From an uncultured Myxococcales bacterium (GTDB taxonomy: Bacteria > Myxococcota_A > Polyangia > Polyangiales > Houyiibacteriaceae), in NCBI GenBank assembly GCA_937893795.1, contig CALCTH010000071.1, positions 1 through 36,478 of the forward strand: a stretch of 36,478 bases of DNA. The letters are read 5' to 3'. Shown here piece after piece: positions 134 to 26,203 of this stretch. The position numbers were made by a program, and so were the translations under genes. Below the pieces are notes generated by a model. That model was not told the origin of the DNA. It was given only the letters and a program-made list of their open reading frames with translations, and ran no database searches. The first letter of the stretch is position 1. Every line of letters begins with the position of its first letter.

Positions 134-2446
134 TCAGGAATCCAACACGAGGTCCCCCGCCTCGCCGGGGCCGACCACGCGCAGCGTTCGGTCGCGTAGC
201 TCCGGCTCCCGCGCCATGCGCACGGCCAGCGGCGTCACGACCGCGGCTTCGACCACGCGCTTGAGCGGCCGCGCCCCGTAGCGCGGGTCGAGGCCGCGCG
301 CGGCGAGGCGTGCCCGCGCTGCCTCGCTCACCTCCAGCCGCAGCCCCCGGCGCGCGAAGCCCTCCCGCGCGGCCACCTCCTCGAGGAGCACCTCCGCGAT
401 GCGCTCGACGTCGGCGGCGCCGAGGCGCTGGAAGGGCACGACCTGATCGATGCGCCCGAGGAGCTCGGGGCGGAAATGCTCACGTACGGCGCGCCGGTAG
501 TCGGCGTCGTCGCGCGCCGCCCCGTAGCCCACGGGTGCGCTCTCACGCACGCCGAGGTTGGAGGTCATCACGACGAAGGCCATGCGGAAGTCGACCAGGC
601 GTCCGCCTTCGTCGGTCAGCCGGCCTTCGCCGAGCAGGCCGAGGAGCAGGTCGAAGACGCTCGGGTGCGCCTTCTCGATTTCGTCGAGGAGCACGAGCGT
701 GAGCGGCTGCTGGCGTACCTGGCTCGCCAGGCTACGCGCCCCACGACCCGTCGCGAGGAGCCGCTGCGCCGAGCCGAAGGTCGCGTACTCGCTCATGTCG
801 AGGCGGACCATGCGCCTGGCGTCGCCGAAGAGATAGCGCGCGAGCTGCTTGGCGAGCTCCGTCTTGCCGACGCCCGTCGGGCCCACGAAGAGGAGGGTAC
901 CGAGGGGCCGGTCCGGCGGGTTCAGGCCGGCCTTGAAGGGTACGAGGCTCGTCGCCGCCGCGCGGCACGCGGCGTCCTGACCGATCACCCGGGCCCGGAG
1001 CCGCTCGGCTACCACCTCGCGGCCGGCGACGTGCCGGTCACTCACCAGCTCGAGCGGCAGCCCGCTCCAGCGCGCGAAGGCCTCTTCGACCCCCGCGGCG
1101 TCGAGCGTCTGCGGACCCGCGCTGCGTTTGGCCTCCGCGTCGAGGAAGCGAAAGGCCTTGCCCGGGAAGGACTGGTCGCGGCGGTAGGTGCCGAGGAGCT
1201 GAAGGAGGCGCCGGGCGCCCTTCGGCGGGAGCGTCTTGCGCGTCCCGCGAAACACGCGTTCCGCATGGACGGCGAGGGCCGGTAGGAGCGCCCCGCGGCC
1301 CGGCTCGTGGAGATCCCAGCGCTCGAAGAGGCCCACGAAACGCGCGTTGAGGCGCCGCGCGGCGACCAGCTCCTCCGGCGTCGCCTCCGCGATCAGCGCC
1401 ACGTCGCCCGCCGCGATCGCCGGCGCGAAGAGGTCCGCGAGGCTCGCGCCGCCGGAGCGGGGCTGGACGAAGGGGACGAGGCGTCCGACGTCCAGGAGCC
1501 GGTTCGACTGGCGCAGCTCGTCCACGAGCGCCAGCGCCCGCTCCTGCCACATGCCCACGAAGACCATCCCGGCGAGGAGCCGTTCGGTGCTCGTGCGATG
1601 GACTCCGGCCAGGCGCGGGCTCTCGTCGCCGCGTCGGGCCTTGAGAAGCGCCCGCGCGAGCGCGTTCACGGCCGTGGTCTTTCCGGTGCCGGCGCCGCCG
1701 ACGAGGAGCCGCGAGCGCAGCGGCCCTTCGCCCTCGTAGAGGCGCAGCGTGAGCCCGCGCGGGCCGTCCAGCGGAACCGTTCTCGGCAGCCGGTTCTTCG
1801 CGGCCCGGTCCACGAGATCGTCCGCGACGGCGCTGAGAGTCTCGGGGAGCGCCGCCTGGGTGCGGATGGCGGCATGGCGCTCCTTGCGCACGAGGCTCGG
1901 CTCGTAGGCGACCACGCGCTCGCGGCCCTCGTTTCGGAAGTCGTAGAGGACTTGCGCGCTCTCGCCCACGAGGGCGCCGCCGATGCAGCTCGCGAGCACG
2001 GCCGGCGCGCTCTCGAGGTCCTCGAGAAGCAGCCCCCAGTCGAAGCGCGGGAGCATCACCCGGAACGCGGCCGACTCGTCGCCGCGCTGCGCGCCACCGC
2101 GGTCCCGTACCCGGCTCCAGACGTAGGTCACGCGAAAGGGGACCTCCCGCGCGCCGACGGCCCACAGGCCGTCGATGCGGCTGGCGGGGCGCACGGGGAC
2201 CCGCACGGTCTTGGTCTGGAAGGTCTCGGTCCAGAGGTAGCGCGCCAGGTCTTCGGTGCCGCGGACGACGCGCGTCTGGAGCTCCGCTTCGAGCGCGAGG
2301 AGCACGGCCTCGTCGTCCTTGCCGTAGGCCGCCGGTGGCGCCGCGTCGAAGAGGCGGCGCTCCCGGCGCATGAGGTAGCCCGTCACGTTGTCGTCCGTGT
2401 GGGTGACCAGGTACGCGCGCAGCGACGATTTTCCCTTCGCCGTCAC
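134..2446 (-). CDS. Third gene of the operon: ClpA/ClpB-like double-AAA+ ATPase without C-terminal extension (770 aa)
   Basis: The GTG start at 2446 overlaps the upstream TGA as GTGA; the longer open frame is a read-through shadow of its neighbour. Residues 1-240 form an N-terminal region that is not the usual Clp_N repeat pair. D1 has Walker A GAGTGKTT (251-258) and the motif AGMVFVGMWQER (292-303), but the Walker B position reads LLDVG (317-321) instead of hhhDE. D2 (about 485-760) has Walker A GPTGVGKTE (522-530), Walker B LLDEIEKAH (586-594), sensor 1 TSN (628-630), an arginine finger in GRID and sensor 2 GARPLKR (724-730). The aromatic GYVG pore loop is missing: residues 563-581 (LLATGRG...VRQQP) run straight into Walker B. 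PVGYG (638-642) sits where ClpC has its VGF ClpP-docking loop. It is a Clp/Hsp100-family ATPase by sequence; its substrate is unknown. Confidence 0.9.
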   Translation of the reverse strand: MTAKGKSSLRAYLVTHTDDNVTGYLMRRERRLFDAAPPAAYGKDDEAVLLALEAELQTRVVRGTEDLARYLWTETFQTKTVRVPVRPASRIDGLWAVGAREVPFRVTYVWSRVRDRGGAQRGDESAAFRVMLPRFDWGLLLEDLESAPAVLASCIGGALVGESAQVLYDFRNEGRERVVAYEPSLVRKERHAAIRTQAALPETLSAVADDLVDRAAKNRLPRTVPLDGPRGLTLRLYEGEGPLRSRLLVGGAGTGKTTAVNALARALLKARRGDESPRLAGVHRTSTERLLAGMVFVGMWQERALALVDELRQSNRLLDVGRLVPFVQPRSGGASLADLFAPAIAAGDVALIAEATPEELVAARRLNARFVGLFERWDLHEPGRGALLPALAVHAERVFRGTRKTLPPKGARRLLQLLGTYRRDQSFPGKAFRFLDAEAKRSAGPQTLDAAGVEEAFARWSGLPLELVSDRHVAGREVVAERLRARVIGQDAACRAAATSLVPFKAGLNPPDRPLGTLLFVGPTGVGKTELAKQLARYLFGDARRMVRLDMSEYATFGSAQRLLATGRGARSLASQVRQQPLTLVLLDEIEKAHPSVFDLLLGLLGEGRLTDEGGRLVDFRMAFVVMTSNLGVRESAPVGYGAARDDADYRRAVREHFRPELLGRIDQVVPFQRLGAADVERIAEVLLEEVAAREGFARRGLRLEVSEAARARLAARGLDPRYGARPLKRVVEAAVVTPLAVRMAREPELRDRTLRVVGPGEAGDLVLDS

Positions 2447-5400
2447 GGGGCTTCCCCCGCCGTGTCGGGCAGGCGGGACATGTGGAGGCGGAGGAGACGC
2501 GGCAGCGCTTGCGTCGGCGTCTGCGCCTCCGCGCGCTGCACGCGGACGTGGCGGTAGCCCTCGATCTCCGGCGGCGCGGCGGGGCCCCGGCGCCGCCGCG
2601 ACCAGCGCAGGCGCCGGACCACCGGGAGGAGGGCGTCGGGGTTCGCCGGCAGCGCGGGCGCGCCCCCGTCCAGCGCGCGCTCGTAAGCCGCGCGGGCAGT
2701 CCCGGTGGCCTCGAGGCGCGCCTTCGCGTCGTGCTCCGCGGGGAAGACGCTCACGCGTACCACCTCGGATCCGTCGGCGAGCGCGTCGAGCACGTGGCAG
2801 CCCTGCTCGCCGGCGAAGAACTCGTAGAGCTGAGGGCCGCTGAAGCTGAGCGCGATCTCCTCGGGGCTGGGCCCGAGCCCGGCGAGCTTCACGTCGGCAA
2901 CGTCGAGGGAGCGCAGCATGCCCCGCGTCCGGCAGGCGGCGCGCGGGAGCGTGCCGCGGGCCGCCGCGTAGGTCGCGGCCAGGTGGGGCAGCAGCCGCGC
3001 GGAGGTGGAGCGGGGCGTGATGCGGCGGAGCACGACCTCGCAGCCGTTGCTGGCGCCGGCGCCGGCGGCCAAGGCGCGGCGGAGAAACGTGATCTCGGCG
3101 AGCACGGCGAGGATTCCGTCGCGGTCCGGCGGGGGGAGGCGTCCGGCGGTGGCGCGAGCATCGAGGAGTCGCACCCTCGGGTGCGAGGCGCGAGGGTCCC
3201 GGTAAGGTGGCCGGCGTATCACCCGCTCGCGACGGCCGTCGACCGCTTGCTCGAGGTGAAGCATTTCCTGGCGTCCGGCGTCGTGGACCCAGCCGTCGAG
3301 GCGCTCGCGGAAGCGGAGAAGCTCCTCCCGGAGCTGGTCCAGCCGGTAGGCCGCGTCGGCGGCCTCGGCGTCCCCGGCGGCGAAGCGCGACACGGCCTCG
3401 CCGAGGGCGGCGTTGACGTCGGCGAGCTCCGGCCCGGCGAGCAGCGCGTCGAGCTCCGCGAGGGCCGCAGGCAGCCGGGCGCGCAGCTCGGGCAAGGACG
3501 CCTCTTCGAGGCCTTCGAGCGCGTAGCGTGCGTCGAGGGGCTCCGCCTCCCGGAGCGCCTCGCTCACCAGCCGGAAGGGAGTCTCCGCCCCCGGCGGGCT
3601 GGCGGTCAGGCGGACGATCTCCATCTCGCTGCGGGTCCGGGAGGCGAGATGCTCCGCGAGCTGCGCGCCCACCTCCGCCTCGAGATAGCGACGCACGGAG
3701 CGGGCCCCGGCCCGCTCGTCGAAAGCCTCCCGCGCCATGCGCGCGGCGGCGCTCGCGTGCGTCGAGACGAAGACGTTTCGCTCCGTCAGGCCGCGGCGCG
3801 CGAGCAGGCGCTCCAGCTCTCGCCGGGCGATGCGCTCCGCCGCGTCCGCGCCCAGCGGCGCGAAGGAGACCACGCGGTCGATGCGATTGAAGAGCTCGGG
3901 TGGGAAGAAGGCGCGCACGGCCTGGAGGACGTCGGCCTCTTGGCTCGCGGTGCTCTCCTCGCCGAAGCCCACGCTCGGGCGACCCTTCGCGCCGAGGTTG
4001 GACGTCATGATGACGACGGTCCGCGTGAAGCTCGCGAGCTCGCCGGAGGCGTCCGTGAGGCGGCCGTCCTCGAAGAGCTGCAACAGCAGATAGAGCACCG
4101 AGGGATGGGCCTTCTCGATCTCGTCGAGGAGCAGCACGCAGAAGGGCTGCTGTCGCACCGCCTCGGTGAGCAGACCTCGCGGGGCGCCGCGCTCGCCGAT
4201 GAGCCGCGGCACCGCGTCCGGGCCAGAGAGCTCGCCCATGTCGAAGCGGACCAGGCGCTCGGGCTCCCCGAGGCCGTCTTCGGAGGCGCCGTAGAGGTAG
4301 CTCGCCAGCTCCTTGGCCAGCTGCGTCTTGCCGGTGCCCGTGGGACCGGTGAAAAGGAGCACGCCAAAGGGGCGCTTCGGGTCCGTCAGACCGGCGCGTA
4401 CCCGGATCACGAGCTCCGCCGCGACGCGCACGGCCGGCGTCTGGCCCATGACGCCCTCCTCGAGGTCCGTGACCACGTCCTCGACGGTCAGCGCGGTGTC
4501 GCGCTCGAGGAGGAACTCGGGAAGCCCGGTCCGGTCCGTCAGCGCTTCGAGGACCAGGTCCGCGTCGATGGGCCCGGGCGCGCCCGCGTGGCGGCGCGCC
4601 GTGTGGTCGAGGAGGTCGAGCGCGGCCCCGGGGAGCGCCTGGGCCGGGAGGAGGGGCGCGCCGATCTCGAGCACCGCGCGCAGCGCGTCCGGCGCGAAGC
4701 TCACGCGGCGCTCGGGCGCGAGGCGCCGGGAGGCGTGCAACATCATGCGCAGCGTCTCGGTGGTGCTGGGCGGGTCGACGCGGAGCGTGGTGAAGAGGCG
4801 GGCGAAGGCGGGAGCGTCGTCCTCGAGCCGCGCCCATTGGGCCTCGGTGGCGGTCCCGACCATCACGACCTCGGCCCGCTCCACCGGGCCACGAAAGACG
4901 TCCGCCATGCTCCGCTCGCTGTCCCGGCTCCGGCCCGCGCGGCCGAGCGCGACGAGGTCCTCGAAGTGGAGCACGACGCGGCGCTTTCGTGCCTCCGCGG
5001 CGAGCTTCACGCAGCGTTCTTCCCATTCGCCGAGATGGGACATGCCGGCGATGAGCCGGCTGGCGCTGAGCGACCAGACGTGCGTCACCTCGTCGAGGTT
5101 TCGATGCATCGCGTAGGCATCGGCCTCGAGCATGTCGAGCACGGCATGGCGGAGCAGCGTGCGCTTGCCGACGCCAGGCGGCCCGAGGAGCACGACCGGG
5201 CGCTTGCGCGCCCCACAGAGGAGCGCCTGGAGCTGGCTCCTCAGCGGCTCCCGGGGCCGGCCGGTGACGAGCGTCCCGTCCGCCGCCCGGGGCGTCAGAT
5301 CGTCGCCGAGGCGTGCGAGCAGCGAGGAGGTGCCCTTCTGCGTGTCCGCGCGCCCCTCGTTACCGCGCGCCGCGTCCAGGCGAAGGTCGTCCCAGAGCCC

Positions 5401-5961
5401 CTGCCCTTTGTCCGGAAGGCGGTCCAGGAGCGCATCCGTCTTCACGGTCAGAGGCACGGACTTGAGCGTGTCTCGGCGCCCGGGCGAGGCGAGCGCCTGG
5501 AGCTCTCGGTCGTCGAGCTCGCTCCAGCGCGCCTCGAAGAAGCGTGACGCCTGCCGTCTCAGGTCTCCGCCAGGCTCGAGGACGAAGGGCTCGTCCTGGC
5601 GCTGTGGGTGATAGGCGATCTCGAGGCTCGCCGGCGCGGCGTCGCCTTCGCCCAGCACGGCCTCGCAGGGCCGCGTCTCGACCACGAGAGGGACGACGGC
5701 GACGAAGCGTCGGCGCTTGTCGCCGGCCAGGCGCAGATCGACGCGGAGTCGCTCGAGGCGCGCCCGCCCCGCGAAGAGAAAGGGCCTCAGCTCCGCCCCC
5801 GCGCGGGGGTTGAGCGACTCGCGGAGGCGCCGGCCGAGCAGCGCGCGAAGACGCGAGGCCGGCGATCCCCGTACCGTGATGGTGAAGGGATGGATGCCCA
5901 CGGTGGTCCACGTCGTGTCGTGGGCCTCGCGGCGCTGGTAGACGGGGAGCAGCAGCCTCAC
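2443..5961 (-). CDS. Second gene of the operon: double-AAA+ ATPase with C-terminal coiled coil and RF1-like PCRF domain (1172 aa)
   Basis: The GTG start at 5961 overlaps the preceding gene's TGA as GTGA, so translation is probably coupled. The order is: a unique N-terminal region (1-240); D1 with Walker A GPPGVGKR (260-267), AGMSHLGEWEER (305-316) and a swapped Walker B, HFEDL (332-336); D2 with Walker A GPTGTGKTQ (539-547), Walker B LLDEIEKAH (611-619), TSN (653-655), NRID and sensor 2 GARSVRR (752-758). Between them LIGERGAPRG (587-596) replaces the GYVG pore loop. SVGFG (663-667) matches the ClpC VGF loop position. Residues 805-905 are helical and charged, likely a coiled coil. Residues 970-1080 fit a release-factor PCRF domain: SGPQLYEFFAGEQGCHVL (1041-1058) has the spacing of RF1 SG...Y.....E.G.HRV. 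No GGQ domain follows. The domain assignment is my pattern match, and the role is unknown. Confidence 0.9.
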   Translation of the reverse strand: MRLLLPVYQRREAHDTTWTTVGIHPFTITVRGSPASRLRALLGRRLRESLNPRAGAELRPFLFAGRARLERLRVDLRLAGDKRRRFVAVVPLVVETRPCEAVLGEGDAAPASLEIAYHPQRQDEPFVLEPGGDLRRQASRFFEARWSELDDRELQALASPGRRDTLKSVPLTVKTDALLDRLPDKGQGLWDDLRLDAARGNEGRADTQKGTSSLLARLGDDLTPRAADGTLVTGRPREPLRSQLQALLCGARKRPVVLLGPPGVGKRTLLRHAVLDMLEADAYAMHRNLDEVTHVWSLSASRLIAGMSHLGEWEERCVKLAAEARKRRVVLHFEDLVALGRAGRSRDSERSMADVFRGPVERAEVVMVGTATEAQWARLEDDAPAFARLFTTLRVDPPSTTETLRMMLHASRRLAPERRVSFAPDALRAVLEIGAPLLPAQALPGAALDLLDHTARRHAGAPGPIDADLVLEALTDRTGLPEFLLERDTALTVEDVVTDLEEGVMGQTPAVRVAAELVIRVRAGLTDPKRPFGVLLFTGPTGTGKTQLAKELASYLYGASEDGLGEPERLVRFDMGELSGPDAVPRLIGERGAPRGLLTEAVRQQPFCVLLLDEIEKAHPSVLYLLLQLFEDGRLTDASGELASFTRTVVIMTSNLGAKGRPSVGFGEESTASQEADVLQAVRAFFPPELFNRIDRVVSFAPLGADAAERIARRELERLLARRGLTERNVFVSTHASAAARMAREAFDERAGARSVRRYLEAEVGAQLAEHLASRTRSEMEIVRLTASPPGAETPFRLVSEALREAEPLDARYALEGLEEASLPELRARLPAALAELDALLAGPELADVNAALGEAVSRFAAGDAEAADAAYRLDQLREELLRFRERLDGWVHDAGRQEMLHLEQAVDGRRERVIRRPPYRDPRASHPRVRLLDARATAGRLPPPDRDGILAVLAEITFLRRALAAGAGASNGCEVVLRRITPRSTSARLLPHLAATYAAARGTLPRAACRTRGMLRSLDVADVKLAGLGPSPEEIALSFSGPQLYEFFAGEQGCHVLDALADGSEVVRVSVFPAEHDAKARLEATGTARAAYERALDGGAPALPANPDALLPVVRRLRWSRRRRGPAAPPEIEGYRHVRVQRAEAQTPTQALPRLLRLHMSRLPDTAGEAP

Positions 5962-8900
5962 GCGGCGCCTCCCGACTCGGCCCGCGCCTTGGCGGCTTCC
6001 TCGGCGGTCGGGGCGTCGAGGGGCGAGGGCGTGAGCTCGTCGCGGGTGCCGGCTTCGTCGAGGGGGATCAGCGCGGCGAGCGTCAGCTCGTCGAGCACCT
6101 CGGGCGCGAAGGCCTTCCCCCACGGCACGAGCGGCGCGTTCGGCTGCCGCTCCGGGTTCGCGCGCACGTCGGTGAGGCGGGCGGCCGTCCGCCGACGCAG
6201 CTTGGGCCGGGACACCATGGCCGGCGGGGCTAGGGCGGGGGGGCCAAAGTCGCGCGCTGGGTCGAGGGTCGCGCGGTAGGCCACTGGCGCGACCTCGTGA
6301 TGGGCCCCTTCGGGGAGCGGCGGGCGACCGAGCACGCGATGCAGGCCCCCTTGGCACGCCAGGAAGGTGCCGACGTGAGGGCCCTCGAGGCGCAGCAGGA
6401 GCGCCATCCGGTCGCGGCGCTCGGCTTCGAGGCGCTCCCGCAGGAACGCCGCAGCGCGCGGGGGGCCGAAGGCGGGCTTCGAAGGCCAGGTCGAGGGCAA
6501 AGGCGCGCTCGGCGGCGCCCGGTCGCCGCGGAGGTGAAAGGTCGCCTCCCACCCCCGGGGACCGAGCGCCTCGAGGAGGGAGGTGAGCCAGGGGTCGAGG
6601 CTGCGGCCGTCGTCGAGCTCCGTCGCCAGCACGAGCACGGCGTGCTTCGGGTCGTCCTCGAGCAAGAGCGTCAGCAGGTCCCGGCGGAAGTGCCGCCGGA
6701 GCCGCGGCGGCTCGTCGTCGCCAAAGGGCGGCGGCTCCCGCGCCTGCATCGCGTCGAGGAGAAGCTCCTCGAGGGCGTGCACCTCCCGCTCCGCCTCGCG
6801 CAGCGGGCCGAGGCGCTTCTCGGCCGTGCTGCGGGTCTGCTCGAGGAGCGCGACCTCCGCGCCATCGGCCTTCGGCGGCGGCAGCGGCCGACCGCGTTTG
6901 GTCTTCCGTGGCGCGAAGAGCTGCGCCGTCCGTGCCAGGGCATGGGCCTCGGCCTCGGCCAGGGCTTCGACAGCCGGGAGCCGCATGCGCTGCTGGACCT
7001 CGCGGCGGAGCGCGAAGACGCCGCCGAGTCCCTTCAGGGCGCTGGCATCGTCGGCGCTCCGTGGCGTGAACTGCAGCGTCAGCGGCCCGGTGCTCCTCCG
7101 AAAGGAGCCCGGCGCCTGCGCCAACGAGGCGGCTCCCGCGCTCGGCACGACCTCGATGGCGAAGGAACCCGTCTCGGCGCTGAGGCCGGCCGCGAGCGGC
7201 GTGGCGAGCGACGCGTCGACGTGGCGCCGTAGCGCGCGCGCGCCGTAGGCGGGCGACGTCCCTTCCGCGGCGAGGGCCTCGAGGGCCTCGGGGCTCACCA
7301 AGAGCGTCGCCCCGCGCTCGCTCAGCCCGCGTCGCTCCGCGAGCTGGGCGACCAATAGCCCCGTGATGCGGGCCGCATCCGCGGCCGCGAGCGGGCGGAA
7401 CGCGATGATGCGGTCGAGGCGGCCCACGAGCTCCGGGCGGAAGGCCGCGCGTACCGCCTCCATGGCCGCGGCCTGCAGGTCTTCCGGGCCTCGCTGGAAG
7501 CCGAGCGACAGCCGTCCCTCGTGCCGGGCGCCCAGATTGCTCGTCAGGATGACCAGCGTGTTCTTGAACGACGCGACGCGCCCGGCGCCGTCCGTCAGCC
7601 GCCCTTCGCCAGCGATCTGCAGGAGCAGATCGAAGAAGGAGGGATGTGCCTTCTCGACCTCGTCGAAGAGAACGACGGCGAAGGGCTGTTGCCGTACGCG
7701 CCGCGTGAGCAACCCGTCATCGCGGCCGTCGCCGCTCACGAGGCGCTGCACCGCCGCCGGTCCGGCCAGCTCGCTCATGTCGAAGCGAAGCAAGCGCTCC
7801 TCGGCCCCGTAGAGGTAGCCGGCCAGCGCCCGGCAGAGCTCGGTCTTGCCCACGCCCGTCGGGCCCGTGAAGAGAAAGGTGGCCAGCGGCTTGTCCGCCG
7901 GCTGCAGCGCGGCCTTGACCACCGCGAGCGTCTCCGCGACGGCGCGCACGGCTGCGTCCTGACCGACCACGCGGCGGCGCAGCGTCGCGGCGACCCGATC
8001 TGCGTCGAAGGCCCGGTCGTCGCGGAGCAGCACCTCGGGGATGCCCGTCTGCAGGCTGAAGAGCTGCACGACGGCCGCGCCCCCGAGGTCCCCCTCCACG
8101 CGATGGCCGGGCCGGTCGGCCGCGTCGCGGAGCTCCTCGAAGAGGCGCGCGGCCTTCCCCGGGAACGCACGGTCGTGGAGATAGCGTTCGGCGAGGTGGA
8201 GCAGGGTCGTTTGCCCCTCCTCCGTCACGCGAGGGCGCTCCGGCGCGTGCTCCTCTGCGTGCGCCGCGCGGGCCGCCAGCACGGCGCCGCCGGCCGTTCG
8301 GTCCTGGGCCTCCATCCCGAGCACGTGGAAGCTGGCGAAGAAGCCCTCGTGCCGCGCGGCGAGCCGGTCGTGGGCCTCGGGCGTGAGCTCGGCGACGACG
8401 CGGACGCGACCCTCTTCGAGCGCGGGCTTGAGAGCGCCCGCGAGGTCCACGTGGGACTCGCCCGTCCGCGCGTCGAAGAGGTCGCGGAGGTCCGAGAGGT
8501 AGAGCACCGCGTCGAGCTCCTCGGCGGCGTCCACGACGCGCGCGAGGCGAGCCTGCCACTGGCCCAGGTAGCTCATGCCCGCGACCAGCTGGGCACCGCT
8601 CGTCTGGTAGGCGAGGCGTTTCCCGTCGCGGGGGAGCAACGCTCCTCGCCGAAACGAGGCGCCGCTCGCGTGGTCGCGGACCCACTGCTCGAAGAGGGCG
8701 CTCTTGCCGGCCCCGCTCGGGGCGACGAGAAGCACGGAGCGCCGGGGCTCACCCTCGAGCAGCTCGGCGAGCACCCGAAGCTCGTCGTCGCGGCCCACGG
8801 TCGGCGCGGCGTCGGCGATGGACGCGGAGGCGTGGAGGGGAAGGGCGACGTCCGACAGAACTTCCAGGGCGAAGCGCATCTTCGTCGCGCGCTCGAGGCG

Positions 8901-9488
8901 CCGGCGAAGCCCACCTGCGCCCGGCTCGGCGTCGGCGACGTCGCGCCGCGCGACCTCGAGCATGAGCGGCGCGAGCGCGATGCGCCCTCCGGGCAGCCTC
9001 TCCGCCCAGCTCTCCGCGTCGTAGCGGCGCGCGTCCAGCAAGCGCGCGACCTCCCGTGTGAGCGTGGCCTCCACCGGCTCGTCGGCGCCGAGATACATCG
9101 TCTGCGCGAGCGAGGGCACGAGCGCCCAGCGCGGCCCGAGCTCCGCACCGCGCTCGATGGGGAGAAGCACCACGGGCACACCAAGCCGGAGGGAATGCGG
9201 TCGCTCGTCGTGGCCCTTCGGCGGGTCGCCGAGCGTTGGCAGGGGCACGTAAACCTGCAGGAGCGTCGCGTCGGCCGGGAGGGCGTGGCGACTCACCTCC
9301 GTCGCCGGTGCGCGCGCGAGGGCCTCGCTCAGATAAAGGTGGAGGTCGTCGAGGGCGCTCTCGGGGTCCGTGGCGTGCGCGGCGATCGACGGGTCCATGA
9401 CCGGGTAGGCAAGGACGTCACCGGAAGGGAACTGCTCCACCACGGCGAGCGTGCGGAGTGCCAGGGGCGAGGCGGAGGACGAAGCCAT
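5958..9488 (-). CDS. First gene of the operon: double-AAA+ ATPase with C-terminal coiled coil and RF1-like PCRF domain (1176 aa)
   Basis: The ATG at 9488 is the first credible start; upstream in-frame sequence is a shadow of the divergent dipeptidase gene. The N-terminal region (1-230) is beta-rich and unfamiliar. D1 has Walker A APSGAGKS (256-263) and AGMSYLGQWQAR (303-314), but LYLSDL (329-334) replaces Walker B, and no arginine is seen near FFASF where the D1 arginine finger should lie. D2 is intact for ATP use: GPTGVGKTE (542-550), VLFDEVEKAH (606-615), TSN (649-651), GRLD and GARALRR (749-755). The GYVG pore loop is replaced by LVSGDGRDDG (583-592). SLGF (661-664) occupies the ClpC-type ClpP-docking position. 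A helical segment (820-915) precedes an RF1-like PCRF domain (940-1070), including GWEATFHLRGD and GGLHRV followed by AHHEVAPV. The GGQ domain is absent. Confidence 0.9.
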   Translation of the reverse strand: MASSSASPLALRTLAVVEQFPSGDVLAYPVMDPSIAAHATDPESALDDLHLYLSEALARAPATEVSRHALPADATLLQVYVPLPTLGDPPKGHDERPHSLRLGVPVVLLPIERGAELGPRWALVPSLAQTMYLGADEPVEATLTREVARLLDARRYDAESWAERLPGGRIALAPLMLEVARRDVADAEPGAGGLRRRLERATKMRFALEVLSDVALPLHASASIADAAPTVGRDDELRVLAELLEGEPRRSVLLVAPSGAGKSALFEQWVRDHASGASFRRGALLPRDGKRLAYQTSGAQLVAGMSYLGQWQARLARVVDAAEELDAVLYLSDLRDLFDARTGESHVDLAGALKPALEEGRVRVVAELTPEAHDRLAARHEGFFASFHVLGMEAQDRTAGGAVLAARAAHAEEHAPERPRVTEEGQTTLLHLAERYLHDRAFPGKAARLFEELRDAADRPGHRVEGDLGGAAVVQLFSLQTGIPEVLLRDDRAFDADRVAATLRRRVVGQDAAVRAVAETLAVVKAALQPADKPLATFLFTGPTGVGKTELCRALAGYLYGAEERLLRFDMSELAGPAAVQRLVSGDGRDDGLLTRRVRQQPFAVVLFDEVEKAHPSFFDLLLQIAGEGRLTDGAGRVASFKNTLVILTSNLGARHEGRLSLGFQRGPEDLQAAAMEAVRAAFRPELVGRLDRIIAFRPLAAADAARITGLLVAQLAERRGLSERGATLLVSPEALEALAAEGTSPAYGARALRRHVDASLATPLAAGLSAETGSFAIEVVPSAGAASLAQAPGSFRRSTGPLTLQFTPRSADDASALKGLGGVFALRREVQQRMRLPAVEALAEAEAHALARTAQLFAPRKTKRGRPLPPPKADGAEVALLEQTRSTAEKRLGPLREAEREVHALEELLLDAMQAREPPPFGDDEPPRLRRHFRRDLLTLLLEDDPKHAVLVLATELDDGRSLDPWLTSLLEALGPRGWEATFHLRGDRAPPSAPLPSTWPSKPAFGPPRAAAFLRERLEAERRDRMALLLRLEGPHVGTFLACQGGLHRVLGRPPLPEGAHHEVAPVAYRATLDPARDFGPPALAPPAMVSRPKLRRRTAARLTDVRANPERQPNAPLVPWGKAFAPEVLDELTLAALIPLDEAGTRDELTPSPLDAPTAEEAAKARAESGGAA

Positions 9489-16596: not shown

Positions 16597-18027
16597 ATGA
16601 ACTTCGCTAAGTACTTCGATACGCGCTTGCTCGCGGCCGCGATGATCGCGGCGGCGCCGCTCTCTGGCTGCGGTGACGACGGCGACGCCGCGCTGCCCGC
16701 GACCTACAACTTCACGAACGCCACGGGCGAGAGCTCGGTCGTCTACGGCGGGCAGACCTTCCGCCACGTGCTGATCCAGGAAATGAACGGGTTCGTGAAC
16801 GGTCTTTCGGAGACCATCGATGGCGACGCCGCGTCGCCCTTCGGGACCGCGGGACGCACGGCGGCCGAGCTCAACTCGTGGTTCCGCTTCGACGATTCGG
16901 CGGCGGAGCGGACCTTCGAGTTCGTGACCTTCGGCCGGCAGGACTCCTTCGACGAGCTCGCCTCGCCGCGCGGCCTCGAGAGCAAGACCGCCGGCAACGA
17001 CAGCTCGACGGACCACCGTGACTGGAACGGCGGCGCCTTCCTCGGCTGGAACGACACGGCGCTCCTCGGCGCCGACGCGGGAAGCAACCCCACGGCCTTC
17101 GTGGACGCGCTCATCGCCGCCATGGACGCGCAGGCCGTGGCCCGTGCGGCGGGATCCCAGGCCACCGCCCCGGACGGCTCGCCGCTGCCCGTGTACACGA
17201 CGGCCGAGGGCCTTGACCTTCGCCAGCTGCTCGAGAAGTTCCTCCGCGTGAGCGTGACGTTCTCGCAGGGCGCCGACGACTACCTGGATGACGACGTGGA
17301 CGGGAAGGGCCTGCTCTCGGACAACCTGCCGAGCGACGGCGACCCCTACCGCACCCTCGAGCACCAGTGGGACGAGGGCTTCGGCTACTTCGGTGCGCCG
17401 CGGGATTACGGCGACTACACCGACGAGGAAATCGCCGGGCGTGGCGGTCGCGAGGACTGGCAGGGACGCCACGACACCAACGGTGACGGTCAAATCGACC
17501 TCATCACGGAGAACGTCTGGGGCGCCGCCTCCAACGCCGCGAAGCGGGACCTGGGCTCGGCGACGGGCACGGACTTCACCGCCGAGGTCTGGGAGGGTTT
17601 CCTGCGCGGGCGTCAGATCCTCGCGGAGTCCGCCGAGGGTCCGCTGAGCGAGGCTCAGCTCGCCGACCTGCGGGCGGCCCGGGACCAGGCGCGCGGGACG
17701 TGGGAGCGCGTCATCGCCGCGACCGCCATCCACTACATCAACGACACGCTCGACGACATGAGCGAGTTCGGGACCGACGCCTACTCCTTCGCGACTCACG
17801 CGGTCCACTGGGCCGAGATGAAGGGCTTCGCGCTCGGGCTTCAGTTCAACCCCGGCTCGCCGCTGCTGCCGACCTTCGCGCAGGTCCACGATCTGATGAG
17901 GGACCAGCCCGTGCTAGAGGATGCGGGCGATGCGGCCATCGCCGCGTACGAGCAGGCGCTTCTCGACGCGCGTGCGTTGATGGGCACGGCCTACGGCTTC
18001 GCCCAGGCAGACCTCGAGGCCTGGTAG
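16597..18027 (+). CDS. DUF4856-family lipoprotein, iron-uptake locus
   Basis: The 476-residue protein starts at ATG 16597 behind a good ribosome site (AGAGGA). It has a signal peptide with lipobox LSGC (Cys about residue 24) followed by acidic GDDGD, so it is probably anchored in the outer membrane or facing the periplasm. The mature part opens with YNFTN...SSVVYGGQTFRHVLIQEMNGFV and has an aspartate-rich central region with DTNGDGQIDL. This pattern I associate with DUF4856 proteins, which are often encoded beside imelysins. The DTNGDGQID segment resembles a calcium-binding loop. It is followed 33 bp later by the imelysin gene and preceded by a Fur-like operator. Iron or other metal capture is inferred from context; no catalytic motif is visible. 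Confidence 0.7.
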   Translation: MNFAKYFDTRLLAAAMIAAAPLSGCGDDGDAALPATYNFTNATGESSVVYGGQTFRHVLIQEMNGFVNGLSETIDGDAASPFGTAGRTAAELNSWFRFDDSAAERTFEFVTFGRQDSFDELASPRGLESKTAGNDSSTDHRDWNGGAFLGWNDTALLGADAGSNPTAFVDALIAAMDAQAVARAAGSQATAPDGSPLPVYTTAEGLDLRQLLEKFLRVSVTFSQGADDYLDDDVDGKGLLSDNLPSDGDPYRTLEHQWDEGFGYFGAPRDYGDYTDEEIAGRGGREDWQGRHDTNGDGQIDLITENVWGAASNAAKRDLGSATGTDFTAEVWEGFLRGRQILAESAEGPLSEAQLADLRAARDQARGTWERVIAATAIHYINDTLDDMSEFGTDAYSFATHAVHWAEMKGFALGLQFNPGSPLLPTFAQVHDLMRDQPVLEDAGDAAIAAYEQALLDARALMGTAYGFAQADLEAW

Positions 18028-18060
18028 CCTTTCGGCCCCCACCGACCCCAGGACGACGCC

Positions 18061-19242
18061 ATGCGCTTCTCGAGCTTCTTCCTCCTCGCGGCATCCGGTC
18101 TGACCCTGGCGAGCTGCAGCGGCGACGGCGCCCCGAGCGACACGGGGCCCGAGGCCGATGCGCGGCGCCAGGTCCTCGCGGCCTTCGCCGACGACGTCGT
18201 GGTTCCCCGCCTCGCCCGCTTCCGCGGTGACGCGGCCGCCCTCGAAACCGCCGCCCAGGCCTGGGCGGCGGCGCCGGCGGACGCGACTGCGCGGGGCGCC
18301 GCGCAGGCCGCCTTCGTGGACGCGATGGATACCTGGCAGGAGCTCGAGGTGCTGCAGGTGGGGCCCGCTGGGACCACCGGGGACATCGAGGGGGGGCAAG
18401 GCCTTCGCGACGAGATCTACTCCTGGCCCACGACCAACGCCTGCCGCGTCGACCAGGAGACCATCGAAGACGCGGCCGCGACCCCGGACGGGCTTCGCAG
18501 CGAGCTCGTCAACGTGCGTGGCCTCGACGCCCTGGAGCGCCTGCTCTTCGTCGTGGACGAGACGACCGCCTGCCCGTCGAGCAGCCCGCTCATCCTGGAC
18601 GGGTTGTGGGAGGCCGTGGCGGCGACGCCCGGCGACGTGACGGCGCGGCGAGCGAGCTACGCCGCCTCGGCGGCGACGCTGGTGCGCGAGCGTGCCGAAG
18701 AGCTGGAGGCGGCCTGGACGGGCGGCTTCCGCGACGAGCTGGCGACGGCGGGCGCGGGCTCCGTGGTGTACCGGACGAGCCTCGACGCGCTGAACGGCGT
18801 GAGCGACGCGCTCTTCTATCTCGAAGGCATCACCGTGAACGTGAAGATCGCGGAGCCTGCGGGGCTCAGCGGCTGCGAGACGGCGGACACGTGCCCCGAG
18901 GCCCGAGAGAGCCTCTTCGCCGACCGCTCGCTCGCCAACATCCAGGCCAACTACCGCGGCTACGTCGCAGGCTTTCGCGGCGGCGAGGGGATGGGTCTCG
19001 ACCAGCTTCTTCGTGACGTCGGCGCGTCCGATCTGGCGGACCGCATGGACGCCGCCATCGTCACCGCCGACCCGGTGGTGGAGGGCCTGAGCGGCACGCT
19101 CCCGGCGCTGCTGGAGGCGGATCCGCAGGGTCTCGACCCCGCGTTCAACGCGATCCAGGACGTCGTGCGCCTTCAGCGTACGGAGCTCGTCAGCGTCTTC
19201 AACCTGCGCCTGCCGCAGAGCGTCGCCGCCGACAACGATTGA
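18061..19242 (+). CDS. Imelysin-family (IrpA/peptidase M75-like) lipoprotein
   Basis: The 393-residue protein has a signal peptide ending in the lipobox LASC and a helical, alanine-rich mature domain typical of the imelysin/IrpA family. Visible family landmarks are DTWQELEVLQVGP, GLRDEIYSWPTTNACRVDQ, and the core RGLDALERLLF, where the family GxHxxE motif would be. Here the histidine position is aspartate (GLDALE), while the glycine and glutamate remain. Imelysins are iron-regulated periplasmic or surface proteins thought to bind metal; peptidase activity is doubtful in most members. The gene sits between the DUF4856 gene and the HTTM gene, and the close spacing supports one operon. Confidence 0.85.
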   Translation: MRFSSFFLLAASGLTLASCSGDGAPSDTGPEADARRQVLAAFADDVVVPRLARFRGDAAALETAAQAWAAAPADATARGAAQAAFVDAMDTWQELEVLQVGPAGTTGDIEGGQGLRDEIYSWPTTNACRVDQETIEDAAATPDGLRSELVNVRGLDALERLLFVVDETTACPSSSPLILDGLWEAVAATPGDVTARRASYAASAATLVRERAEELEAAWTGGFRDELATAGAGSVVYRTSLDALNGVSDALFYLEGITVNVKIAEPAGLSGCETADTCPEARESLFADRSLANIQANYRGYVAGFRGGEGMGLDQLLRDVGASDLADRMDAAIVTADPVVEGLSGTLPALLEADPQGLDPAFNAIQDVVRLQRTELVSVFNLRLPQSVAADND

Positions 19243-19257
19243 GCGGGTGGCGAGTCC

Positions 19258-20667
19258 GTGGAGTCCGAGGCCACGGGCATGCGAGCGCTCTGGGCGCGTG
19301 GGCACGCGCCCGTCGACCCCGCGAGCCTGGTGGCCTTCCGGGTGGCCTTCGGGCTGCTCGGCATGGTCAGCGCGGAACGTTTCCTGAGCTTCGGCTGGGA
19401 CGAGCGGCTCTTCGACGCGCCGAGCTTCCACTTCCGCTACTACGGCTTCGGCTGGGTGCCGACGCCCCCGGACGGCGTCGTCACGGGCCTCTTCGTCGCC
19501 ATTCTCGCGCTGGGCAGCCTCATCGCGTTCGGTCTCGTCACGCGGCTTGCCACGGTGCTCTTCGCGGTGCTCTTCACGTACGTCCAGCTCATCGACGTCA
19601 CGACGTACCTGAACCATTACGTCCTGGTCAGCCTGTTGGCCTTCTGGATGTGCCTCATGCCCCTCGGGGCCCGGGGAAGCCTCGACGCATGGATCCGCGC
19701 ACGGCGTGGCCGTCCGCCGCGTCCCCCGCTTCGGGCCTGGATGCTCTGGGCGCTCCGCTTCCAGGTGGCCGTCGTCTACGTGAACGCGGCGCTCGCCAAG
19801 GCCACCGGGGACTGGCTGCTGCATGGGCAGCCCATGGGCATCTGGCTCGCCGCGCGCACGGACACTCCGCTCGTCGGGGACCTCTTCGCGCACCACGAGG
19901 TCGCCCTCGTGCTGGGGTGGGCCGGCTTTCTCTACGACCTCACCATCCCGCTCTGGCTCAGCCTTCGCCGGACCCGGGTGCCGGCCTACACGCTGCTGCT
20001 CGTCTTCCACGGCATGACCGCCGTGCTCTTCGACATCGGGATGTTTCCCTGGATCATGACGGCCGCCGCGACGATCTTCTTCGAGCCCGCGTGGCCTCGC
20101 CGGCTCCTCGGTCGCCTCGTCGGTCCGCGTGACGAGGCGTCCCGGCCCATCGAGCCCACGAGACCACGCCGCGGCCTGGCGGTGACGCTCGCCATCTTTG
20201 CGCTTCTGCAGGTGCTCTGGCCGCTCCGTGCGCACGCCTACGGTGGCAACGTGCTCTGGCACGAGCAGGGCATGCGCTTCAGCTGGCGGGTTCTCTGCCG
20301 CGAGAAGAACGGTTCCATTCGCTACCGCGTTCGCTGGACCGGCAGCGAGCGAGAGCGCTACGTGTTTCCGCAGCGCTACCTCACCGATCACCAGGAACGC
20401 GAGATGGCGGGGCAGCCCGATCTCGTGCTCCAGCTGGCGCATCACGTGGCGGCGGACCACCGTGCGCGCGGCTACGAGGACGTCGAGGTGCGCGTGGACG
20501 CCTGGGTCAGCCTCAACGGACGACGCATGGCGCGCATGATCGACCCCGATGTGGACCTCTCGCGGGTGCCCGATGGCCTCGGCAAAGCGAGCTGGATCCT
20601 GCCGGCGCCCGGCGGCGCGCCGATTCGGCTGCAGCGACCCCCACGGGTCGCGGAGGATGAGCGATGA
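19258..20667 (+). CDS. HTTM-domain membrane protein, vitamin K-dependent gamma-carboxylase homologue
   Basis: The 469-residue protein has several membrane helices over about the first 300 residues. It then has a soluble C-terminal domain rich in aromatic and charged residues (WHEQGMRFSWRVLCREKNGSIRYRV). The opening PVDPASLVAFRVAFGLLG, the LRFQVAVVYVNAALAKATGDWL segment (shortened here) and the FHFRYYGF region are typical of HTTM proteins. HTTM proteins are bacterial relatives of vertebrate gamma-glutamyl carboxylase. Bacterial roles are largely unknown. GTG 19258 was chosen because it follows the imelysin stop by 15 bp; ATG 19279 is an equally possible start. Its stop overlaps the receptor ATG (ATGA), so it is coupled to TonB-dependent uptake. 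Confidence 0.82.
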   Translation: MESEATGMRALWARGHAPVDPASLVAFRVAFGLLGMVSAERFLSFGWDERLFDAPSFHFRYYGFGWVPTPPDGVVTGLFVAILALGSLIAFGLVTRLATVLFAVLFTYVQLIDVTTYLNHYVLVSLLAFWMCLMPLGARGSLDAWIRARRGRPPRPPLRAWMLWALRFQVAVVYVNAALAKATGDWLLHGQPMGIWLAARTDTPLVGDLFAHHEVALVLGWAGFLYDLTIPLWLSLRRTRVPAYTLLLVFHGMTAVLFDIGMFPWIMTAAATIFFEPAWPRRLLGRLVGPRDEASRPIEPTRPRRGLAVTLAIFALLQVLWPLRAHAYGGNVLWHEQGMRFSWRVLCREKNGSIRYRVRWTGSERERYVFPQRYLTDHQEREMAGQPDLVLQLAHHVAADHRARGYEDVEVRVDAWVSLNGRRMARMIDPDVDLSRVPDGLGKASWILPAPGGAPIRLQRPPRVAEDER

Positions 20668-23090
20668 AGCGGTTCCGGGTCCTGGCGCTCGCGGCCTCGG
20701 TCGCGCTGGCGGCCGAGAGCACGGCTCTCGCGCAGGAGAGTCCACCCGCGGATCCGGACGCGGGCGGCTTCGAGCTCGACGAGGAGTTCGAACTCGACGA
20801 GGAGCCGGAGACGGGAGCGGAGACGGACCAGGATCCGGCGACGGGGACGGAACCGGACACGGACACGGAGACGGAGACGGAGACGGAGACCGACACGGGC
20901 ACGGGCACGGGCGCCGACCGAGGTGCTGACCGCGAGATGGAGGAGATGAGGGTCGACGTGCTGCCGCTCGTCGACCCGCGGAGCATCGGCGGGGGCGTGA
21001 CCGTCCTCGACGAGGAGCAGCTCGACACGCTCAACTACGACGACCCGCACTCCGTGCTGCTGCAGGCGCCGGGCGTCTACGTGCGCACCGAGGACGGCTT
21101 CGGGCTCCGCCCCAACATCGGTCTCCGCGGCACGGACCCGGGCCGGAGCCGCAAGATCACGCTCCTCGAGGATGGCGTTCTCTTCGGACCGGCACCCTAC
21201 GCCGCCCCGGCGGCCTACTACTTCCCGCTGATGACGCGCATCACGGGCGTCGAGGTCTTCAAGGGCCCGGCGGCCATCCTCTTCGGTCCCCAGACCATCG
21301 GCGGCGCCATCGACTTCCGGACCCGGCAGGTTCCCGAGGGGCGCCGCGGCCAGCTCGACCTCTCCTTCGGCCGCTTCCGCTCGCAGAAGGCCCACCTCTG
21401 GTACGGCGCATCGAATCGCTGGGGCGGGATCCTCGTGGAGGGCCTCCACGTCGGCACCCTCGGCTTCAAGGAGATCGACAACTCCAACCGGAACACGGGC
21501 TTCCAGCGCCAGGATTTCGTCGTGCGCGGCTTCGTCCGCGCGAACCCCACGGCCCGCGTCTATCATCGCCTGGAGCTTCGCCTCGGGCTCGGGCGCGAGC
21601 GCTCGGACGAGACCTACCTCGGTCTGAGCCGCGAGGACTTCGCTGCCAACGCGACCCGTCGCTATGCGTCGACGGCGCCGGACCGGATGAACTGGTGGCG
21701 CACGAGCGGTGTCCTCACGTGGACCCTCGGCATCGGCGAGCACACCTCGCTCGTCACGGACGTCTACCGGCACGACTTCGAGCGGAGCTGGTTCCGGCTG
21801 AATCGCTTCGGGACCACGCGCGGGGCCGACGCGAACGGCGACGGAGTGCCGGACGCGAACGACCAGGTCGGCCTGCGGGACATCGTGAACAACCCGACCG
21901 GCGCCAACGCCGTACGCCTCGCGGTGCTGCGCGGCGACGAGGACTCGGACGAGCTCCTCGGACGCCCCTACTCCATCGACAACGACCGCCGCTTCTTCTC
22001 GCAGGGTGTGCAGAGCCGGCTCCGGACGACCTTCGCGACGGGCGCGCTGCGCCATGAGGTCGACGCCGGCCTTCGCGTGCACATGGACCAGGTCGAGCGC
22101 GAGCAAACCGAGTTCGGCTTCGACATGCGGAGCGGCACGCTCGTTCGCCGCCCCGACGACACGACGCTCGTCACGGACAACCTCGACGAAGCGCTCGCCA
22201 TCGCGGGCTACGCGACCTGGAAGCTCGCCTGGCGCGGCTTCGAGCTGAGCCCTGGGCTTCGTACGGAGATCATCCGCACCGAGCGCACCAACGACCTCGA
22301 CCGCGACGCCGATACCGACGCCATCGACACCGTGGTCCTGCCCGGGCTCGGCGTCACCTACGCCTTGAGCGAGGAGCTCCGCCTCGTCGCCGGCGTGCAT
22401 CGAGGCTTCTCGCCCGTCGCGCCGGGCCAGGACGAGGGCATCGACCCCGAGCTCAGCCTCAACTACGAGCTCGGCGCGCGCTACGTCGACCCGGAGAAGG
22501 GCCGGCTCCTCGAGCTCGTGGGCTGGCTGAACGACTACTCGAACCTCCTCAGCCAATGCGCCTTCGCGCGGGGCTGCGACGTCGAAGACCTCGACGAGCA
22601 GTTCGAGGGCGGCGACATCTTCATCTGGGGCATCGAAGCCGCCGCCCAGTGGCGCTTTCCCCTCGGCGACGCCTGGCTGCTTCCCGTGCGTGCAAGCTAC
22701 AGCTACACGGACAGCCGCTTTCAGGAGGCCTTCGCGTCGAACGACCCGACCATCGGGACCGTTCAGGAGGGCGACCCGCTGCCCTTCCTGCCGCGGCATC
22801 AGGGCCAGCTTCAGCTGGGGCTCGAGCACGCACGATTCGGCGTGCGCACGGTCCTCACCTACGTCGGCGAGCTCCGCGAGCGGGCGCAGGGCGGACCGGG
22901 CCTCACGACGACGGACGACTTCGTCCTTCTCGACGCCGTGCTCTGGAGCGACGTGACTGAGCGCGTGCGTGCGTACCTCCGCTTCGAGAACCTCGCGAAC
23001 CAGTCGCCGGTGGTCTCGACCCTGCCCTTCGGACCGCGGCCACTGAAGCCCTTCACGGTATGGGCTGGCGTACGCGCCGACCTGGAGTGA
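20664..23090 (+). CDS. TonB-dependent outer-membrane receptor, FecA-like
   Basis: The 808-residue protein starts at the ATG overlapping the HTTM stop. It has a signal peptide (cleavage near ALAQE) and then an unusual acidic, threonine-rich linker (about residues 32-90). The plug domain is recognised by GGGVTVLDEEQL, DPHSVLLQAPGVYVRTEDGFG, LRPNIGLRGTDPGRSRKITLLEDGV and VEVFKGPAAILFGPQTIGGAIDF. This series is strongly FecA-like (ferric dicitrate). The beta-barrel ends with a strand finishing VWAGVRADLE. MRVDVLPL before the plug may serve as the TonB box. The substrate is probably a ferric chelate, given the Fur-like site and the imelysin. No fecI/fecR pair is seen. Confidence 0.9.
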   Translation: MKRFRVLALAASVALAAESTALAQESPPADPDAGGFELDEEFELDEEPETGAETDQDPATGTEPDTDTETETETETDTGTGTGADRGADREMEEMRVDVLPLVDPRSIGGGVTVLDEEQLDTLNYDDPHSVLLQAPGVYVRTEDGFGLRPNIGLRGTDPGRSRKITLLEDGVLFGPAPYAAPAAYYFPLMTRITGVEVFKGPAAILFGPQTIGGAIDFRTRQVPEGRRGQLDLSFGRFRSQKAHLWYGASNRWGGILVEGLHVGTLGFKEIDNSNRNTGFQRQDFVVRGFVRANPTARVYHRLELRLGLGRERSDETYLGLSREDFAANATRRYASTAPDRMNWWRTSGVLTWTLGIGEHTSLVTDVYRHDFERSWFRLNRFGTTRGADANGDGVPDANDQVGLRDIVNNPTGANAVRLAVLRGDEDSDELLGRPYSIDNDRRFFSQGVQSRLRTTFATGALRHEVDAGLRVHMDQVEREQTEFGFDMRSGTLVRRPDDTTLVTDNLDEALAIAGYATWKLAWRGFELSPGLRTEIIRTERTNDLDRDADTDAIDTVVLPGLGVTYALSEELRLVAGVHRGFSPVAPGQDEGIDPELSLNYELGARYVDPEKGRLLELVGWLNDYSNLLSQCAFARGCDVEDLDEQFEGGDIFIWGIEAAAQWRFPLGDAWLLPVRASYSYTDSRFQEAFASNDPTIGTVQEGDPLPFLPRHQGQLQLGLEHARFGVRTVLTYVGELRERAQGGPGLTTTDDFVLLDAVLWSDVTERVRAYLRFENLANQSPVVSTLPFGPRPLKPFTVWAGVRADLE
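20855..20911 (+). repeat. Hexanucleotide repeat tract in the receptor N-terminal linker
   Basis: Units of GGACAC, GGAGAC and GGGCAC follow one another about nine times. They encode alternating Thr with Asp, Glu or Gly between the signal peptide and the plug domain. Less regular copies extend the tract on both sides (about 20802-20935). Because the unit is six bases, expansion or contraction would change linker length without a frameshift. Confidence 0.75.
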
Positions 23091-23147
23091 CCGTGCCGCC
23101 GCGTCACGCCCCTCGGCCTTGACGCCCCGAGAGCGTGCCGGGATACC

Positions 23148-24749: not shown

Positions 24750-26203
24750 CGGCGCGACCGCAGCTCATCGTCGGCCGCTCGAGGGATTGCGACGTGGTGC
24801 TGAAGGAGCCCACGGTGAGCGGTCGTCACGCGAGGCTCGGCTGGCAGGCGGGGCGCATCCTGGTGGAAGACCTCGGAAGCGCGAACGGCACCTTCGTGTC
24901 CGGCGAGCGGGTGGAGCGCGAGCTCGTCCGTCCGGGCGACTCGATACGCTTCGGGGGCGCGGAGCTGGTCTGGAGCGACCCGCGGCTCCGCGGGTTCCTG
25001 CGGGCGGGGGCCGGCGACACGGTCCAGGGCGTCACGCTTCCGGGCGCGCGCCGCTTCATCTGCGGCAGCTGCGGCACACGGGGCGTGATGCCGCGGGGCT
25101 TCGTCTCGGGCGTGCTCAAGTGCGGCGCCTGCGGTGAGCGGCTGGTGGTGGCCGACGGCCGACGCCGGGCCATCGGTCGGCCGGTGATGATCTTCGCGCT
25201 GCTGGGGCTTCTCGCCGCGGCGGCGCTGCTGATCGTAAGGAGCGGGGAGGCCCGACAGACGCTGGCGCGGGCCGCCGAGACCCTGGGCGAGGTGCCCGGG
25301 CGCCTCGACGCGCAGCGAAGCGCGAACAGCCCGCAGGAGGCCTCGATTCGCCTTCACACGCTCCCCGACGTGCTCGCGGCCCTCGACGCGACGACGCCGC
25401 TCACGCGCAATACGGCGGCGCGCATCGCGGCCGACGAAGAGGGCGCCTATCGCGTCGAGCAGGTCGCGCGGTTGTGGAGCCATGCACGGTCGGCGTGGCG
25501 CTACGTGAACGATCCGCGAGGGAACGAGTATTTCGCCAAGGCGAGCGAGACCATCGCCAACGAGTACGTCGGGGACTGCGACGATTTCGCCATCCTCCTG
25601 GTCGCGATGATCCAGGCCATCGGCGGCGAGGCGCGCCGCGTGATGATGGATGGCCCCGAAGGCGGTCACGCCTACGCGGAGGCCTGCGTTCCCGAGGACG
25701 CCGTCGCGGTGCAGGAGAAGCTGCGGGCGCATTACCGCCGCCACCGCGACCGGAACCTCGGACGGCAGCGCGTGGAGGCCGTACACTATCGGCCCTCCGG
25801 TACGTGCCCCGTGTGGCTCAACCTGGACTGGAACGCGGGCGTTCCGGGAGGGCCCTACGAGGACGAGGCGTGGGCGGTCGCCATCTACCCCGACGGCCGG
25901 ACGGAGACGCTCGCGCCGGCCGGGGAGGGCGGGGAGCCCAGCGGCGGCGAGGCGGCGCGGGCGCCCGGAGGAAACGCCGCCCGTAGGTCTTCCTTCCGGC
26001 CCTCACGTCAGTCGCCGAAGGTCTCCCAGCGCTCGCGCTGCGTGGGGGTGCCGAAGCCCTCGGTGAGGCACCACTCCACGAGGTCGTCGTCGAGCACGTC
26101 GACGACCGTCTCCGCACGCTCCACCACCGTTTCGCCGAGGCTCTCGAGGTCCACGTCTTCCGGTGCCTCGAGGTCCGCGTGGACGAGGAGGCGGCCGTCG
26201 TGA
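24746..26203 (+). CDS. FHA - zinc ribbon - transmembrane - transglutaminase-like protein
   Basis: The GTG at 24746 overlaps the kinase stop (GTGA). Domains in order are as follows. An FHA domain has GR (10-11), SGRH (25-28) and NGTF (47-50), the phosphothreonine-binding landmarks. A zinc ribbon has CGSC...CGAC (C106, C109, C126, C129). A single membrane helix spans about residues 146-164. A transglutaminase-like domain has [10 protein letters not shown] (Cys278), GGHAY (His308) and LDWN (Asp361), a complete catalytic triad. With the helix, the FHA part would be cytoplasmic and the enzyme part periplasmic. The final 65 residues are Ser/Arg/Thr-rich and lie opposite the gene at 26008-26460, so the annotated end is doubtful. 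The true end may lie near 25986 if a frameshift is present. Confidence 0.75.

Follow-up and report, generated by a model that had tools for sequence, protein, structure and literature searches.

The three genes and their AAA+ modules

Three adjacent genes, here called A, B and C, lie near the start of contig CALCTH010000071.1 from an uncultured Myxococcales bacterium. The 36,478-nucleotide stretch that was analysed is referred to as the window. A sequence-only reading of the window had described these genes as paralogues of 1176, 1172 and 770 codons that encode double AAA+ proteins of the Clp/Hsp100 type and are joined by GTGA overlaps. The open reading frames, Pfam matches and both junctions agree with that description. 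All three genes, and all features of them given below, are on the minus strand: A (5958..9488, 1176 amino acids), B (2443..5961, 1172 amino acids) and C (134..2446, 770 amino acids). Transcription runs from A through B to C, beginning at an ATG start codon in A and crossing a GTGA overlap at each of the A/B and B/C junctions. Each protein consists of an N-domain and two AAA+ modules, D1 and D2. A and B continue into a release-factor-like C-terminal region of about 380 residues, which is absent from C and was overlooked in the earlier layout. Every protein of the trio matches Pfam AAA_2 and ClpB_D2-small and has a weaker second P-loop upstream. Gene C also matches three more Clp-type genes in the fragmented 6.4 Mb host genome, encoding a canonical ClpB, a second ClpB-like protein and ClpA. 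Because the host has these genes of its own, the trio is extra to the housekeeping Clp proteins. Named relatives are mostly from Sandaracinus, Sandaracinaceae and other Myxococcota.

A shared motif in D1 had been proposed as private to these proteins. It reads AGMSYLGQWQAR in A (8547..8582), AGMSHLGEWEER in B (5014..5049) and AGMVFVGMWQER in C (1538..1573), and its AGMxxxGxW core lies at residues A303, B305 and C292. The motif occupies the pore-loop-1 site, which is KYRGEFEER in ClpB, and KYRG is changed to SYLG, SHLG or VYLG. AGMxxxGxW was found in 54/54 B and 47/49 C relatives and in none of seven ClpA/ClpB-type controls, but in only 28/45 A proteins, where AGQSGF is also seen at this site. 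Of 73 stretches matching AGMS[YHR][LV]G[DEQ]W in 84,980 species genomes, 68 are relatives. Judged by these counts, AGM(S/V)xxGxW is a mark of the family that is slightly looser in A.

The N-domains span residues 1–235 of A (8784..9488), 1–240 of B (5242..5961) and 1–240 of C (1727..2446). Profile alignment with hhalign revealed that they are homologous (A-B, E 6.3e-9; A-C, E 7.5e-9; reversed controls 0.13 or worse). The A N-domain has no Pfam match, and no Clp_N repeat was matched by Pfam in the N-regions of A, B or C. A structure model of the C N-domain predicts an alpha/beta fold (mean predicted local distance difference test score, pLDDT, of 85), so that in the model the trio N-domain is unlike the all-helical Clp_N. 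The absence of Clp_N claimed earlier is thus upheld, and the N-domains are not variants of it. The claim that each protein has its own N-terminal region needs amending, since the three are homologous to one another. Together with the common D1 motif, their homology places A, B and C in one family, as the sequence-only reading had it. No match to the N-domain fold in the PDB was obtained with Foldseek below E 0.001, and the best VIA matches were the release-factor GGQ domain and double-stranded RNA-binding domains (Z ≤4.4). A GGQ domain relocated to the N-terminus is not claimed, as hhalign to the RF1 GGQ domain scored at the level of reversed controls. By eye the starts of the three N-domains weakly resemble a HicB-type strand-strand-strand-helix unit. 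Their hhalign E values against two HicB sequences were 0.0016–0.09 (reversed, 0.04–0.9), a weak result that serves as a lead only.

To describe the motor, residues at the Walker B position were counted from alignment columns in 156 sequences (52 A, 55 B and 49 C). The Walker A lysine of D1 is present in 51/52 A, 52/55 B and 49/49 C proteins. The D1 catalytic glutamate is found in 0/156, being replaced by aspartate or asparagine in 49/52 A, by aspartate in 55/55 B and by arginine in 34/49 C. The arginine-finger site of D1, RRF in ClpB, is gone. Since the lysine is kept and both the glutamate and the finger are lost, D1 should bind ATP and assemble, probably without hydrolysis. Conversely, the Walker B glutamate and arginine finger of D2 are present in 156/156 sequences, with the motifs of sensors 1 and 2 also intact. 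By these residues the hydrolysis machinery of D2 is complete in A (approximate bounds 7164..7991; Glu610, Arg690), B (approximately 3607..4470; Glu614, Arg693) and C (approximately 197..1015; Glu589, Arg665).

The GYVG threading loop of D2, which lies between RL and LLT, is absent from all 184 trio sequences and present in 6/8 Clp controls. The 184 comprise 152 sequences of class I and 32 of class II, a distant second class of the trio. The corresponding sites read RLVSGDGRDDGLLT in A (7704..7745), RLIGERGAPRGLLT in B (4165..4206) and RLLATGRGARSLA in C (725..763).

The C-terminal regions of A and B

In class-1 release factors, codons are recognised by a superdomain made of domains 2 and 4, and the GGQ motif belongs to domain 3 (PMC6742477). 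The C-terminal region of A (residues 790–1176, 5961..7121) is release-factor-like, of the PCRF type, by Pfam and by hhalign to RF1. That of B (residues 795–1172, 2446..3579) corresponds to domain 1 plus superdomain 2/4, lacking the GGQ domain. The two tails are homologous to each other (hhalign E 1.8e-9). By eye, GCHVW..EVVRV in the B tail and GLHR in the A tail can be set against GVHRVQR in RF1. Pfam PCRF matched 4/16 A tails (best E 0.0047), and a hidden Markov model built from A tails had release factor 1 as its top PDB match (E 0.01). The class-II A protein of Archangium (L118) exceeds the Pfam PCRF cut-off with 28.7 vs 24 bits; PCRF is below cut-off in class-II L119, L125, L128 and L121. 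Against RF1 proteins of related genomes, hhalign gave E 4.1e-5 for A and 8.7e-4 for B, with reversed controls at 0.04 or worse. Merging A tails with class II improved the match to E 3.7e-7 over 195 columns (reversed control, 0.045).

The B tail was modelled with AlphaFold2 from an alignment of 38 sequences (pLDDT 89; predicted TM-score 0.86). In Foldseek the best 47 rows were all RF1/RF2, with a top E of 1.2e-6. With VIA-align, 265 residues of the model aligned with E. coli RF2 (chain 4-365) at Z 12.7; release factors fill the best 42 rows, down to Z 7.6, and a protein of another kind first appears at Z 7.3. Global TM-scores were low (0.2–0.4), as expected if the domains are placed differently.

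In B, about 42 residues separate the last PCRF strand and the C-terminal R motif, vs 99 in RF1, which indicates that B has lost the GGQ-domain strands. A coarse regular expression for the GGQ tripeptide matched 0/53 B tails and 5/50 A tails, about the chance level by our estimate, and PF00472 matched none of 16 A and 16 B tails. The loop that holds the stop-codon tripeptide appears shortened in the B alignment and is variable in A. It is well supported, by profile alignment and by the predicted structure, that the C-terminal regions of A and B have the fold of a class-1 release factor, with domain 1 and superdomain 2/4 but no GGQ domain. Because the host genome retains ordinary RF1 and RF2 genes, the trio tails are not its termination factor.

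Five A proteins, and no B or C protein, carry in addition a segment of the L7/L12 C-terminal domain. Four are class-I proteins (L055, L056, L076 and L085) that end in KIxAIKxYRExTGxGLKEAKDAVE, and L055 passes the Pfam L7/L12 cut-off (PF00542; 26.4 vs 25.9). The fifth, class-II L118, has a similar insert inside the tail. According to published work the L12 C-terminal domain touches RF3 via helices alpha4 and alpha5, and domain 1 of RF1 touches L11 (PMC3677378). We read the fused segment, from its sequence, as alpha4-alpha5.

Distribution of the trio

Searching 77 related genomes with B gave Clp-type matches in all of them; in about 18 a B-type gene has A- or C-like neighbours. In the first complete loci examined the order A-B-C and the strand were constant (14/14), and most junctions overlap by 4 nucleotides. 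Profile searches recovered the same order in nearly all sufficiently long loci, those of the distant group included. In a sample of 286 Myxococcota genomes, class-I A was found in 21, B in the identical 21 and C in 20 of these. The sole genome without C is G039, whose contig stops inside B, and no genome of the sample has class-I A without B. The fixed co-occurrence proposed earlier is borne out by this result, and the genes are not usually solitary. The 68 relatives that carry the B form of the D1 motif come from Archangium, Hyalangium, Sorangium, Minicystis, Enhygromyxa, Plesiocystis, Paraliomyxa, many metagenome-assembled genomes of Myxococcota, one Thermoanaerobaculia and a distant group in Archangiaceae, Verrucomicrobia, Pirellulaceae and Sulfidibacter.

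The hosts of class II extend to Acidobacteriota, Verrucomicrobiota and Planctomycetota. Each of 17 class-II genomes searched in full has three class-II-level matches. These are contiguous in, for example, G037, G170, G205 and G152, and dispersed in G148, G083 and G061. The unlinked loci of G148 and G061 score separately as A, B and C. The best N-domain matches of class-II genes 1, 2 and 3 are A, B and C, and the tails of genes 1 and 2 match those of A and B. The strongest argument for a joint function is that all three genes occur together also without linkage. In a quick tree of D2 alone, class-I A, B and C each form one branch (support 99–100) and the Clp controls stand apart (100); where all class-II genes join is not settled by this tree. 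A, B and C are well supported by these comparisons as one family, an ancient fixed set with three old branches.

In G073, contig C37 (L057) has A and B adjacent with no C beside them, and a 778-amino-acid relative is encoded on a different contig (G073:C34:44483-46129). A short D2-like frame near a class-I trio (L107:9262-10479, minus) scores weakly with the C model. A solitary relative (L161:2035-4635 and L167:2215-4836, minus) combines HEAT-type repeats with the same D1/D2 pair and has no GYVG. The group of Hsp100 proteins without this pore loop is broader than the trio.

Likeness to known systems and possible function

The trio shares with ClpB/Hsp104, ClpA, ClpC and ClpV two tandem AAA+ modules, the ClpB_D2-small domain and a complete set of D2 Walker A/B, sensor 1, arginine finger and sensor 2. 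ClpB and ClpA models match its AAA+ cores with E 1e-76 to 1e-93. Unlike Clp/Hsp100 proteins, it has no Clp_N, no D2 GYVG and neither catalytic glutamate nor arginine finger in D1; instead it has its own alpha/beta N-domain, a release-factor tail and three obligate paralogues. Against the NCBIfam equivalogs for ClpA, ClpB, ClpV, ClpG and ClpK it scores about 190–314 bits, vs cut-offs of 885–1900. The earlier description as divergent Clp/Hsp100 ATPases fits the AAA+ core but takes no account of the release-factor modules, of the dead D1 or of the absent D2 pore loop.

The tails have in common with RF1/RF2 the fold of domain 1 and superdomain 2/4; they differ in that the GGQ domain is gone, the decoding loop of B appears shortened and the fold is part of one protein with an AAA+ motor. 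Another release-factor derivative tied to a partner gene is PrfH (RFH), an additional release factor whose gene lies next to a second one (PMC1586002). In PrfH the GGQ and codon motifs are kept but domain 1 is missing; the trio tails show the reverse, with domain 1 kept and GGQ lost. A functional parallel is offered by Cdc48 and Vms1 in ribosome quality control (PMC6514570), where a double AAA+ motor works with a release-factor-like protein. As Vms1 belongs to the unrelated aeRF-1-type family, is a separate protein and is an active hydrolase, this is an analogy only. No family for an Hsp100 with a release-factor domain or for an obligate set of three Hsp100 paralogues was found in Pfam, NCBIfam or PADLOC, and PADLOC matches to the trio run only through generic AAA+ modules. 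Neither arrangement was found in the literature searched, which did not extend to subscription papers. Publications on vWA-MoxR and death-domain conflict systems and on release-factor evolution describe no such fusion.

With release-factor modules, a dead D1 and no D2 pore loop, the trio does not look like an ordinary threading chaperone. Fixed co-occurrence of A, B and C, also in genomes where they are unlinked, naturally suggests a joint machine of mixed subunits. We give about even odds to the reading that the three proteins are obligate subunits of a single AAA+ machine, derived from Hsp100, which most likely acts on ribosomes. A single hexamer might contain all three, for instance as two copies of each, and in it D1 would bind ATP and support assembly without hydrolysing it. 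The release-factor modules would dock on ribosomes that have stalled or are terminating, at the A site and the L11/L12 region, and would release no peptide. Hydrolysis by D2 would then power a pull or a rearrangement of subunits instead of GYVG-type threading, and the ribosome complex might thereby be freed or dismantled. A bolder form, which we hold tentatively and at rather less than even chances, is that the trio represents a new class of translation machine. Its mixed three-subunit Hsp100 ring would bind the ribosomal factor site through non-catalytic release-factor modules, some with L7/L12, and its D2 motor would dismantle or reset stalled ribosomes without threading through a GYVG pore.

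Several points weigh against a role on the ribosome. Ribosome binding, subunit mixing and activity are all inferred, and the fold of a release factor can also serve in other kinds of binding. B tails have lost more release-factor sequence than A tails, and class-II B tails reach RF1 only via class-I B. The trio is accessory, as most genomes of the phylum are without it. The genes around it include no translation genes and are not conserved beyond close relatives. A further point is a [VIL]GF loop kept in 46/55 B proteins, which resembles the loop by which ClpA, ClpC and ClpX dock on ClpP; a protease as partner would fit it. The tripeptide [LIVMP]G[FL] follows D2 sensor 1 in 46/55 B and 29/49 C proteins and in the ClpA of the host genome, not in its ClpB; for the docking pattern [LIV]G[FL] the counts are 46/55 B, 29/49 C and 17/52 A. 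These loops, the clearly Clp-like cores and the aromatic residue often retained in the D1 loops of B and C would favour a specialised unfoldase or disaggregase, perhaps docked to ClpP, for which the release-factor fold would be a generic binding or scaffold module with no ribosomal role. We consider this unlikely: GYVG is absent from every member, D1 cannot compensate by hydrolysis, the C-terminal modules would exit, judging from Clp structures, on the face meant for ClpP, and the L7/L12 segments on A are left unexplained.

The trio could instead be a defence or conflict system linked to translation, one that in the course of predation or infection by phage detects ribosomes and inactivates them. 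It occurs patchily among large-genome Myxococcota, Acidobacteriota, Verrucomicrobiota and Planctomycetota, which agrees with this idea, as does the L12/ClpS domain reported within vWA conflict proteins (PMC7159879). No defence genes were found adjoining the trio, however; the PADLOC matches are generic, no toxin-like domain was found, and no relative was found in viral contigs, so that we regard such a role as quite improbable. That three independent homohexameric chaperones merely share an operon appears very improbable. Each D2 is complete by itself, and the HEAT-repeat protein without a pore loop is a solitary relative; against this stand the strict co-occurrence even without linkage and the separation of class-I A, B and C into well supported clades.

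Elsewhere in the window, positions 16597-24746 hold in a run a DUF4856 protein, imelysin, an HTTM/vitamin-K-carboxylase-like protein, a TonB receptor and a PAS-GAF histidine kinase, possibly for metal uptake. In one protein, at 24479-26200, a transglutaminase-like domain comes after an FHA domain, and closely spaced genes at 29407-32824 encode an asparaginase-like protein, an M48 peptidase and a dynamin-family GTPase. A promoter and terminator scan yielded nothing useful.

If the trio acts on ribosomes, it would tie Clp/Hsp100 motors directly to bacterial translation termination or rescue. It would also provide an Hsp100 family that dropped its threading loop, with which the dependence of these motors on threading can be tested. 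Were the bolder form true, the trio would be a convergent bacterial counterpart of the Cdc48-Vms1 branch of ribosome quality control.

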